Below are positions 1 to 44,113 of a DNA stretch of 44,113 nucleotides, piece after piece; positions within the stretch are counted from its first letter, which is position 1; each line of letters opens with the position of its first letter. The position numbers and the translations under genes were made by a program. The stretch is from a virus. The stretch lies in IMG/VR virus record IMGVR_UViG_3300018815_000428, positions 1 through 44,113 of that record; one strand, given 5' to 3'. Under the pieces are notes generated by a model, which had not been told where the DNA came from, searched no databases, and worked only from the letters and a program-made list of their open reading frames with translations.

Positions 1-40
1 GCGCCCTACTGTGCCATAATTTGGGGCTTCACGAATTCCA

Positions 41-125
41 GCCCGGGTGGTGAAATTGGTAGACGCAGGGGACTCAAAATCCCCCGCCGCAAGGCGTGCC
101 GGTTCGATTCCGGCCCCGGGCACCA
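41..125 (+). tRNA. tRNA-Leu (anticodon CAA)
   Basis: Complete class II leucine tRNA of 85 nt with encoded CCA. The 7-bp acceptor stem pairs 41-47 with 115-121, A122 is the discriminator and CCA is 123-125. The anticodon stem GGGGA/TCCCC encloses the loop CTCAAAA, giving anticodon CAA for UUG codons. The T arm holds the usual GTTCGATTC core. Its 3' 24 bases recur at 821-844, so the gene is the integration target; integration restored an intact tRNA. Confidence 0.97.
102..125 (+). repeat. attachment core, tRNA copy
   Basis: The last 24 bases of the tRNA gene (T arm through CCA) are identical to 821-844. Such duplications of a tRNA 3' end are left by tyrosine recombinases. This copy is part of the functional tRNA. 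The sequence on its right (126-820) is foreign to the tRNA. Confidence 0.9.
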
Positions 126-141
126 CTAAAACAGTGGTTGT

Positions 142-168
142 AGTGCTTCTTGATTGATAGCACTTTTT
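142..168 (+). terminator. intrinsic terminator after tRNA-Leu
   Basis: Inverted repeat AGTGCT (142-147) and AGCACT (159-164) followed by a run of T. A second small inverted repeat, ACCACT/AGTGGT (122-127 and 133-138), overlaps the tRNA end. This ends tRNA transcription in the present arrangement; the other core copy has its own terminator at 842-866. Confidence 0.6.
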
Positions 169-183
169 GCGAAAGCGCCAAAA

Positions 184-789
184 TTAGGCGCATCCCGCGT
201 CGGTCGTTGGCGCGATGATGGCCCGAGCAAGCCTCAGAACCGGCTCAATTCCCCAGGTATTCATTGCAACGTTTGCGACATGGCACACCAGACGAACGTT
301 GCCAGGCTCGTAGCCCTTGGCGCACTCGATGCGATCTAGACTTGGAGCAAAAGGGGAGTTGGTCTGCGTCTTGTCGAACGGTATCCCAGAGAGTTGGCAG
401 ACTCCGTTCGCCTCTGCAACCAAATTCAACATGTCAGCAGGAGTGATGGTGAATGGCCGCCCCATCTTCATGGCTCTGCGCTCAGCGTTGAAGAACATCG
501 TTCGCACCCATTGGGCCGAAGACAGCCAAGCCAGATCTCCGACCACCCTGCGTTTCTTTGGCTGCGCAACCTTTAACACCACTGACGCCCGCTTCCTCTT
601 CGAGCCTCCGGGTATTACGCCTTTTTCGCACTGCGCCCACAGCTCCAGCGCGCGATCACGATCTTTGCCAAGTCGGATCTCTCCAAGGCCCCGACCTCGA
701 CCATCCCACACATAGTAGGTATGGACGGTCCCGTCACGCATCTTGTATGACTTGGCGCGGAATCTTGGAATAGGTGCACTATTGCTCAT
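184..789 (-). CDS. HNH-type nuclease with integrase arm-domain-like N-terminus
   Basis: 201 residues. The C-terminal third has the pattern of phage HNH proteins: a CxLxGIPFD segment, then SLDRI, KGY-PGNVRLV and a conserved Asn in HVANVAMN, about residues 130-180. The N-terminal 60 residues (YYVWDG, then IRLGKDRDRAL and WAQCEKG) resemble the arm-type DNA-binding domain at the start of many phage tyrosine recombinases; this is my reading of the pattern and not a search result. A basic linker (KRKRAS, PKKRR) follows. The ATG at 789 is preceded by no clear ribosome site but directly by a TAGGCGC motif also found beside both cores. It is the only gene of the islet between the two attachment cores. 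Function unknown; nuclease activity is inferred. Confidence 0.75.
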   Translation of the reverse strand: MSNSAPIPRFRAKSYKMRDGTVHTYYVWDGRGRGLGEIRLGKDRDRALELWAQCEKGVIPGGSKRKRASVVLKVAQPKKRRVVGDLAWLSSAQWVRTMFFNAERRAMKMGRPFTITPADMLNLVAEANGVCQLSGIPFDKTQTNSPFAPSLDRIECAKGYEPGNVRLVCHVANVAMNTWGIEPVLRLARAIIAPTTDAGCA

Positions 790-820
790 GCGCCTATTGT
801 ACTGTTTTTATCAACAGCAC

Positions 821-844
821 GTTCGATTCCGGCCCCGGGCACCA
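821..844 (+). repeat. attachment core, second copy
   Basis: 24-bp exact copy of tRNA positions 102-125, without the rest of the tRNA. The prophage lysis genes begin about 110 bp to its right, so this is probably the prophage's own left attachment site, and the 719 bp to its left a separate insertion or a remnant of one. Confidence 0.85.
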
Positions 845-866
845 TAGCTTTTATGCTATGGTTTTT
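842..866 (+). terminator. intrinsic terminator behind second att core
   Basis: CCATAGC (842-848) and GCTATGG (855-861) form a perfect 7-bp stem with a 6-nt loop followed by TTTTT. The stem begins inside the CCA of the core copy. This would terminate a tRNA reconstituted from this core. Confidence 0.7.
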
Positions 867-917
867 GAGTCAATAGGCGCATCGTAGGCGCTGCCGTTGG
901 CGCAAAAGCACACAATC

Positions 918-33040: not shown

Positions 33041-33736
33041 ATGCGTCACTTACTGGCCATCGCGCTTGCAATTGCCCTGGTGGGCTGCGGCGCATCTGCT
33101 CAAGAAGTCAACCACACCAAAGGGCTGGAAGCCTGCACGGTCGAGCTGAACGGGGACAGCGTCCTGTTCGGGTTCGTGAACAACAAGACCACATGGCGAC
33201 TGAAAACCACTCCGGCCGACTGGCTGCGCAAGTTTGGCTACACGGTCACCGACAAGACGGCCGGGGGGCTGCGGACCTATGACCTACTGCGGGGCTATGC
33301 AACACCCTTCCCGGAAGCCTGGGTTGATCTGTTCCCATCCGGCCCTCAGCAGGCCTACGGCGCGGAAGACCACCCGAGCAACATCGTCGTCATCCAGACC
33401 GGCATCAACGACTTCCGCACAGAGCCCTTCCACGTTGCCCAGGTCGCCCACGACTACCGCGTGCTGGTGGACTACATCCGGATGCAGGGAAAGATCCCCG
33501 TCATCACCGGCATCACCAAGCTCGACCAGAACCGGGTTGAGCCAGAGATATACGCCCGGGTCGCCGCCATCAGGACCGCAGTGCGCGGCGTGGCCATAGA
33601 GCGGAACGTCCATTACGCCAGCTTCGATGCTGTGGAAGTGGCATGGACTGACGGCATTCATCTGGACCAGGACTCCAGCAACGGAGTTACTGAAAACCTC
33701 CGCTATGTGCTGGGTGTGATTTGCGGGACGAACTAA
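33041..33736 (+). CDS. SGNH/GDSL-type hydrolase lipoprotein
   Basis: 231 residues from the ATG at 33041. Signal sequence with lipobox LVGC (Cys16) predicts a lipid-anchored envelope protein. SGNH blocks: GDS with Ser40, GIND (121-124, Asn in block III) and DGIHLD with Asp204 and His207 (block V). These enzymes remove or transfer acyl groups, often acetyl from glycans. Alone in its transcription region and without a phage structural counterpart, it looks like a cargo gene that modifies the lysogen surface, for example to alter phage receptors; that is inference. Confidence 0.8.
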   Translation: MRHLLAIALAIALVGCGASAQEVNHTKGLEACTVELNGDSVLFGFVNNKTTWRLKTTPADWLRKFGYTVTDKTAGGLRTYDLLRGYATPFPEAWVDLFPSGPQQAYGAEDHPSNIVVIQTGINDFRTEPFHVAQVAHDYRVLVDYIRMQGKIPVITGITKLDQNRVEPEIYARVAAIRTAVRGVAIERNVHYASFDAVEVAWTDGIHLDQDSSNGVTENLRYVLGVICGTN

Positions 33737-43275: not shown

Positions 43276-43299
43276 AGCCCGCCGAGTGCGGGCTTTTTT
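43276..43299 (+). terminator. terminator (second of a pair)
   Basis: AGCCCGC (43276-43282) and GCGGGCT (43288-43294) followed by six T. With the first one it insulates the last gene, whose start lies 14 nt further on. Confidence 0.8.
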
Positions 43300-43312
43300 A
43301 CGCCCCTACACC

Positions 43313-44113
43313 ATGCGAATCATTCAACTGCTTTTGCTTGTGCTGCTTACTGCCTGCGGTGGTGGCGGCTCCCTGTACTCGGACGGATCGCCCGACTACT
43401 ACGACTTCAACTATCAGCCCGAGCTGGACGAGCCGCACTATGCGCTGGGCCCAGGCGTCACGCTGCAGGCCCGCATTGTGTGGGACGGCGAGCCGGGCGC
43501 GCCCATCGAAACCACCCAGCATGTCCCCATGGGGTTCGTGCAGATCACCGACCCGAACACCGTGAAGAATTTCGCGCGCCAGCCCATCTGGACGCACGGG
43601 GCAGGTGCTTTTGTCGGCGCTGACGGCTTGGCGCTGGAGTTGTGGAGCCGGGTGGATGGTGTGACCGTTGGCACGTTCTGGACACAGGGCTCTGGCCGGT
43701 GCATGTTCAACACGCTGGGCACGGCCGTGGGCACCGATTACTGCCTTGATCCATCCCCGAGCGAGAGGGGTTACCTCACATCTGCGCCGCAGTTCCAACT
43801 CAAGAAGGGCGTGCCGTACATCCTCACGGTGTACCTGAACGAATCCGCCCCTGGGTGGATGGTGCTGCGTGCCAAGCTGTACGAGGCCCGCCGATTCGAT
43901 GAAGTGGTGCAGGTGCAAGAGGGGATGGTCGGCTTCGAGAAGGCCCGCCACCTCCCGGACCAGTCCCAGCAGCTCCGGGCGGCCATTGCCAGAACACCAG
44001 GCTCCATTGGGGAGCCTTCGGTGAGCTACGACTTCCTGGGCGATTTGATCGCATGGGAAGACACCGGGCGCCGGTTTAGCGCGCAGGAAATCGCCATGCT
44101 GGCGGGGGAGTGA
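43313..44113 (+). CDS. putative lipoprotein, last gene in the window
   Basis: 266 residues from the ATG at 43313. Signal peptide MRIIQLLLLVLLTAC with lipobox LTAC (Cys15), then a Gly-rich tract and Tyr/Asp-rich DYYDFNYQ. The beta-rich middle (VTLQARIVWDGEPGAP; LALELWSRVDGVTVGTFW) and a helical end are not a family I recognise. No ribosome site is visible before the ATG, which follows closely on a terminator, so it may be transcribed from within the terminator gap. An envelope-located cargo protein is likely; function unknown. The stop codon is the last base triplet of the window. Confidence 0.6.
   Translation: MRIIQLLLLVLLTACGGGGSLYSDGSPDYYDFNYQPELDEPHYALGPGVTLQARIVWDGEPGAPIETTQHVPMGFVQITDPNTVKNFARQPIWTHGAGAFVGADGLALELWSRVDGVTVGTFWTQGSGRCMFNTLGTAVGTDYCLDPSPSERGYLTSAPQFQLKKGVPYILTVYLNESAPGWMVLRAKLYEARRFDEVVQVQEGMVGFEKARHLPDQSQQLRAAIARTPGSIGEPSVSYDFLGDLIAWEDTGRRFSAQEIAMLAGE

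Follow-up and report, generated by a model that had tools for sequence, protein, structure and literature searches.

What is a single gene doing between two copies of the attachment core of a prophage? The question is raised by the stretch of DNA analysed here, a 44,113-nucleotide IMG/VR virus record (IMGVR_UViG_3300018815_000428, hereafter the window), which carries a tRNA-Leu(CAA) gene close to its left end, a duplicate of the 3' end of this tRNA gene 719 bp downstream, and an islet with one gene in between. We consider the odds somewhat in favour of this gene encoding an attachment-site-directed, homing-type HNH endonuclease. At the level of sequence, this reading is supported by the domain architecture, by the match of the arm class, by the insertion relative to an islet-free relative and by the recurrence of the architecture beside attachment sites with integrase-matched domains. 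The comparisons are to be read with the three instances, the small counts, the phylogenetic relatedness and the missing integrase of the window in mind.

The integration target, identified by ARAGORN, is the tRNA-Leu(CAA) gene at 41-125 (+), which adjoins cysM in contig L003 and in Comamonadaceae genomes; the nearest cysM-tRNA loci are those of Acidovorax and other Comamonadaceae. The 24-bp sequence GTTCGATTCCGGCCCCGGGCACCA has two exact copies in the whole window, both on the plus strand: core1 (102-125) is the 3' end of the tRNA from the T-arm to CCA, and core2 (821-844) is a copy of this T-arm part without the anticodon block. Shuffled sequence gave no match to the 24-bp core, even with three mismatches allowed. 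This result bears out the duplication that an earlier note, made from the letters of this DNA alone, had placed at 821-844, as well as its claim of a single arm-domain/HNH gene between the cores: the only plausible gene in the islet (126-820) lies at 184-789 (-) and encodes 201 amino acids. The islet has a GC content of 0.548 versus 0.621 for the phage, and the surroundings of the 201-aa gene showed no sigma-70-like promoter.

Another contig (L056), identical to the window at 99.99% over 12,173 bp, has both cores and the same structure and runs on beyond the tRNA into cysM, which makes an assembly join unlikely; the two contigs may derive from one strain. At the opposite end, neither an integrase (no PF00589 match) nor attR was found within the window, so that the prophage is cut off before its right end; the last gene (43286-44113) is lipoprotein-like with no match in Pfam, and the record ends on its stop codon. 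A prophage-borne GDSL-like lipase/acylhydrolase gene (Pfam 4e-10) is located at 33047-33733.

The earlier note would have given up its idea had strains shown the islet only as the constant end of a complete prophage, which is not the case. A search of Comamonadaceae genomes led to one (G332) with a prophage colinear with that of the window, the matching segments of 69-94% identity, and also shorter exact stretches, being spread from window 821 to 42651. This prophage occupies the identical site, window 1-125 being 100% identical to the corresponding contig (L224), and in this contig window position 125 joins position 845 directly, that is, the P' arm sits on the tRNA core with no islet. The P' arm is likewise joined straight to the tRNA in five further contigs (L031, L008, L106, L057 and L061). 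Because a colinear prophage at the same site is without the islet, the islet is a clean insertion of 719 bp, counting one copy of the core. No comparable double-core islet at tRNA-Leu was found in the 80 cysM loci and 99 viral loci scanned, and the islet itself was found in one lineage only.

Other repeats of the core were observed at this tRNA gene. Tandem units of about 105 bp, each with a T-arm core, lie downstream of a Polaromonas tRNA-Leu (L178:9566-9899), and similar units are present in Curvibacter and Hylemonella (L138 and L124). In Ramlibacter (L140:6384-9897), two cores 3.5 kb apart surround an acyltransferase-like gene, with no integrase evident among the listed frames; this segment is possibly a small island at the same tRNA.

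Where, then, does the prophage begin? The phage P' arm (845-905, +) comprises a hairpin/terminator at 841-862 and three direct arm-type sites. Hairpins with T-runs stand right behind the tRNA 3' end twice, one supplied by the phage (841-862) and one by the islet, the latter behind core1 (142-168, +) as a possible replacement tRNA terminator; after integration, both possibly give the tRNA gene a transcription terminator again. The earlier note had the prophage proper begin only after core2, and the P' arm does start there, but for recombination this boundary is probably wrong. An attR of this phage type contains a tRNA segment of about 57 bp that starts at the anticodon stem and ends with CCA, and this block is present only left of core1, core2 being the 24-bp T-arm part alone. 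Integrases of the anticodon type cross over in the anticodon region; if this is so here, attL is to the left of core1 and the islet would leave with the prophage on excision; the islet is thus probably inside the excisable unit for this integrase type. The islet stands between the anticodon block and the P' arm, whose sites beside core2 are intact. In that case the islet would hold crossover site and P' arm apart and would offer a terminator-like hairpin of its own, together with arm-type sites beside core1. T-arm-only copies at this tRNA are found in other elements (L012, L015, L025, L037, L048 and L085), and the islet may have originated via a T-arm-only element.

The islet gene, delimited as an open reading frame with its stop codon at 184-186 and characterized by phrog_3322 and tblastn, joins two domains. 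Its C-terminal part matches phrog_3322 (2e-23), and residues 94-191 (217-510, -) form a PacI-like HNH domain containing D152-R153, N164 and N173, four residues that are invariant across eight aligned relatives. A 3-sequence profile reached PacI (3ldy) at E=6e-4, and the alignment brought the D-R...N motifs together. PacI belongs to the HNH family and has a tyrosine where the histidine base usually stands (PMC4081073). Among the PHROGs matches of the islet protein are HNH-fold relatives of the sigma-decoy and anti-sigma kinds, and the PADLOC defence models gave no match to the protein.

Residues 1-60 (610-789, -) were assigned to an integrase-type arm-binding domain from tblastn, alignment and AlphaFold2. 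Residues 8-58 share 51% identity over 51 residues with the integrase of a prophage at the same tRNA site (L069; tblastn E=3e-9), other same-tRNA integrase N-termini match residues 1-60 (L076, 4e-9; L029, 4e-8; and further ones), and phmmer returned the relation to integrases at 2e-13. AlphaFold2 modelled the N-terminal part with high confidence as three strands (9-16, 22-29 and 37-41) and a helix (44-55), and the HNH half with low confidence. Foldseek gave no meaningful match with either the full model or the arm domain alone, so that the assignment rests on sequence homology; by that homology, the N-terminus is a genuine integrase arm-binding domain, in agreement with the relation to recombinase arm domains that had been suspected from the letters. 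Pfam returned no match on the islet protein, including none to the tyrosine-integrase catalytic domain PF00589. In 50,697 phage records, tblastn with residues 1-70 found no match, and the relation surfaced only against same-site prophages.

Which sites would such a domain recognize? In many phages at tRNA-Leu, the P' arm consists of three direct repeats at a spacing of about 10-12 bp, and the P arm, on the integrase side, has one direct and one inverted copy, which precede the T-arm core by about 124 and 80 bp. Different phages use different words (WWGGCGC, GTTCCGC, GTTCCGG, GTCTGC, TTTCCTC and others), and the P and P' words agree wherever both arms are visible, L077 excepted. In that contig (L077:10445-11860), a TTTCCTC-class P arm is joined to a WWGGCGC-class P' arm at the tRNA-Leu core, which, going by the arm words, looks like the junction of two different tandem prophages. 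The P' arm of the window prophage is of the WWGGCGC class (TAGGCGC at 874 and 885, TTGGCGC at 897).

Strand beta-1 bears the signature KxY[KR] in 7/7 of the integrases whose P arm is of the WWGGCGC class (L029, L050, L069, L076, L186, L187 and L190) and in 0/17 with other identified P-arm words. The comparison integrases, among them L005, L006, L009, L019, L027, L046 and L100, have strands ending in RR, RK or similar, with GTTCCG-type, GTCTGC or TTTCCTC sites. These counts suggest an apparent arm-site recognition code in tRNA-Leu integrases, in which KxY[KR] pairs with WWGGCGC. The islet protein reads AKSYK at the position of the signature and scores higher against WWGGCGC-class integrases (Mann-Whitney p=6e-4; the integrases are interrelated and p-values are indicative only).

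The islet itself holds six WWGGCGC words versus a mean of 0.97 and a maximum of 4 in contig windows of the same size, about a sixfold excess. According to the word scan, three arm-type sites beside core1 overlap the 3' end of the gene (GCGCCAA at 175-181, inverted; TAGGCGC at 185-191; TTGGCGC at 207-213), and another, TAGGCGCAT at 788-796 (-), falls on the start codon (TAGGCGC-ATG) as a candidate operator. Since an arm site overlaps the start codon, we infer autorepression, which is known for the homing enzyme I-TevI. Going by the signature and the word counts, the specificity class of the islet arm domain is predictable, and it fits the arm sites of its own prophage as well as those of same-site competitors.

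The earlier note had proposed to look for the same gene beside attachment sites, and the architecture indeed recurs in two unrelated elements, which brings the arm-HNH instances found to three. The order in L052/L184 (L052 being a 59-kb viral contig) is integrase, HNH gene, 59 bp, tRNA-Leu core, and in L220 (genome G361) it is tRNA-Arg, 16 bp, HNH gene, integrase. The HNH domains of both genes are phrog_3322, and the N-termini of both proteins differ from that of the islet protein and from each other. Each N-terminus best matches the adjoining integrase, which ranked first of 61 distinct integrases in both cases; the scores are modest (16.1 bits for L052, 11.3 bits for L185), and the joint chance of both results is about 3e-4 if ranks are random. 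The sole Pfam lead for the L052 protein is Arm-DNA-bind_2, at E=0.05 and below the cut-off. For the islet, whose own integrase lies beyond the window, the integrase of the closest relative (L186/G332) ranks third against the N-terminus with 39.0 bits.

One arm-HNH gene was found in 401 Comamonadaceae genomes. No further arm-HNH gene turned up when genomes were searched with the L185 protein, with phrog_3322 and with the 3-sequence profile, the genome matches of the profile and of phrog_3322 being other HNH families, and scans of viral and genome contigs with single proteins led back to nothing but the contig of the query itself or the duplicate contig. We found no integrase-arm/HNH fusion in the literature searched, whose coverage left subscription journals mostly aside.

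The nuclease half has relatives in virulent phages, where conserved genes flank them. PaMx28 carries two, one between portal/morphogenesis genes and one between thyA and dCMP deaminase, and the relative in LUZ100 is a neighbour of the gene for the large terminase subunit. Phages related to PaMx28 match just the flanks on either side of the portal gap, and their span is shorter by about 490 bp. The N-termini of these virulent-phage proteins do not resemble arm domains, and their genes, to judge from where they stand, show the pattern of free-standing homing-type genes. The islet gene agrees with free-standing HNH homing endonucleases in having a nuclease domain with catalytic residues and in being an insertion relative to an equivalent allele (G332). 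A close HNH domain (NVRLVCTIANFAMNRWGE) is also encoded on a Skermanella plasmid (L215:3644-4273), with a different N-terminus and no evident arm domain. In the literature found, a single PacI-like phage HNH, that of a Skunavirus, has been tested; its activity against the two phages chosen was not significant (PMC12724721).

We hypothesize that the N-terminal domain was taken from the arm-binding domain of a WWGGCGC-class tyrosine integrase, the class that integrates at this tRNA-Leu, and that the C-terminal PacI-like HNH came from the family of free-standing mobile phage genes. The arm domain would bind arm-type sites flanking attP or attL of phages with matching integrases, and the HNH domain would nick or cut near the bound sites. 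Repair from the islet-bearing copy would then spread the gene to the cut position (intron-less homing), competing phages with the same arm sites would be damaged as a by-product, and protein bound at the start-codon site would repress its own expression. Binding, cleavage, homing, autoregulation and competition are thus what we infer for the islet protein. Against homing stands the finding that the prophage's own P' arm keeps intact sites of the target class, so that self-protection needs explaining.

Competition between phages is plausible, on this analysis, as either a side effect or the main function of the nuclease, and the earlier note's idea that the protein may cut or block the attachment sites of competitors is likewise a plausible one. 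As the main function, it would make the gene a domesticated weapon carried as prophage cargo, one that destroys attP or blocks the integration of superinfecting phages with the same arms, homing not being its selected function. This tRNA-Leu is a site for many prophages, some alike and some different in arm class, two arm classes meet at the tandem junction in L077, and Odn (PMC10448857) and PhiPA3 gp210 (PMC11620839) provide precedents; however, the prophage itself has the target class and the family relatives resemble ordinary mobile insertions, and we regard the weapon as unlikely, at perhaps one chance in a handful. More doubtful is a regulator of integration and excision, whose arm domain competes with the integrase and whose HNH domain is inactive or structural. 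The arm sites at the gene start and around att would suit such a role, and the sigma-decoy and anti-sigma relatives indicate that non-nuclease uses of the fold may exist, but the PacI-type catalytic residues D152, R153 and N173 are kept in all aligned relatives.

Both origins that the earlier note had entertained for the islet lost ground. It is very improbable that the islet is the last stub of an earlier tandem prophage, decaying and with no current function: the 201-aa frame is intact with its conserved residues, there is no other phage gene and no full attR block (the 57-bp junction block) at core2, and the arm sites are enriched rather than decayed, even though tandem arrays occur at the site (L077) and the GC content of the islet is below that of the phage. 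A tiny non-autonomous unit using the prophage integrase in trans would account for the 24-bp cores with arm-type sites at both ends, and 24-bp T-arm-only att copies do exist in other elements at this tRNA. At core2, however, the anticodon-region block of the same-class attR sites examined is missing, so that recombination between core1 and core2 is not expected of the phage integrase, and the islet was found in one lineage only, with no comparable islet in the same-site prophages and cysM loci examined; we hold this explanation to be the least probable.

The preferred reading, an attachment-site-directed homing-type endonuclease, may extend beyond this locus. With a probability that we put somewhat short of even, the three genes represent an unrecognised class of HNH enzymes that repeatedly capture the arm domain of a neighbouring integrase and police or colonise attachment sites, with same-code prophages competing by attP cleavage. 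If true, the competition of temperate phages for one tRNA site would be fought at the attachment site itself, the targeting domain of a nuclease could be read from an integrase, and the KxYK-WWGGCGC code would make the targets of the nuclease predictable.

Several known systems resemble the islet protein in part. The restriction endonuclease PacI shares the HNH variant with the D-R...N motif, but is without an arm domain and very distant in sequence from the islet protein (profile E=6e-4). The free-standing PacI-like phage HNH genes (phrog_3322) have the same nuclease domain and are mobile single-gene insertions, whereas the N-termini of the members aligned are different ones; the arm domain of integrase type and the position at att are new in the islet gene. 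HNH-AP2 proteins (IPA-HNH) also combine an HNH with a separate DNA-binding domain; there the HNH is N-terminal and the AP2 C-terminal, and the islet protein has the reverse order and a domain clearly related to same-site integrases. PhiPA3 gp210 is an HNH homing endonuclease that interferes with a co-infecting phage and so provides a case of interference competition between phages (PMC11620839); unlike the islet protein, it is intron-encoded, targets gp178 of the other phage and has no known integrase domain. Odn of the Vibrio phage ICP1 carries a RepA_N domain of the satellite type and cuts the origin of the satellite; it, too, is a nuclease derived from a homing endonuclease and joined to a DNA-binding domain like the machinery of a rival mobile element (PMC10448857). 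Odn combines T5orf172 and RepA_N against a replication origin, the islet protein a PacI-like HNH and an integrase arm, presumably against attachment sites; if our reading is true, the islet gene would be a parallel case of domain capture, aimed at integration and not at replication.
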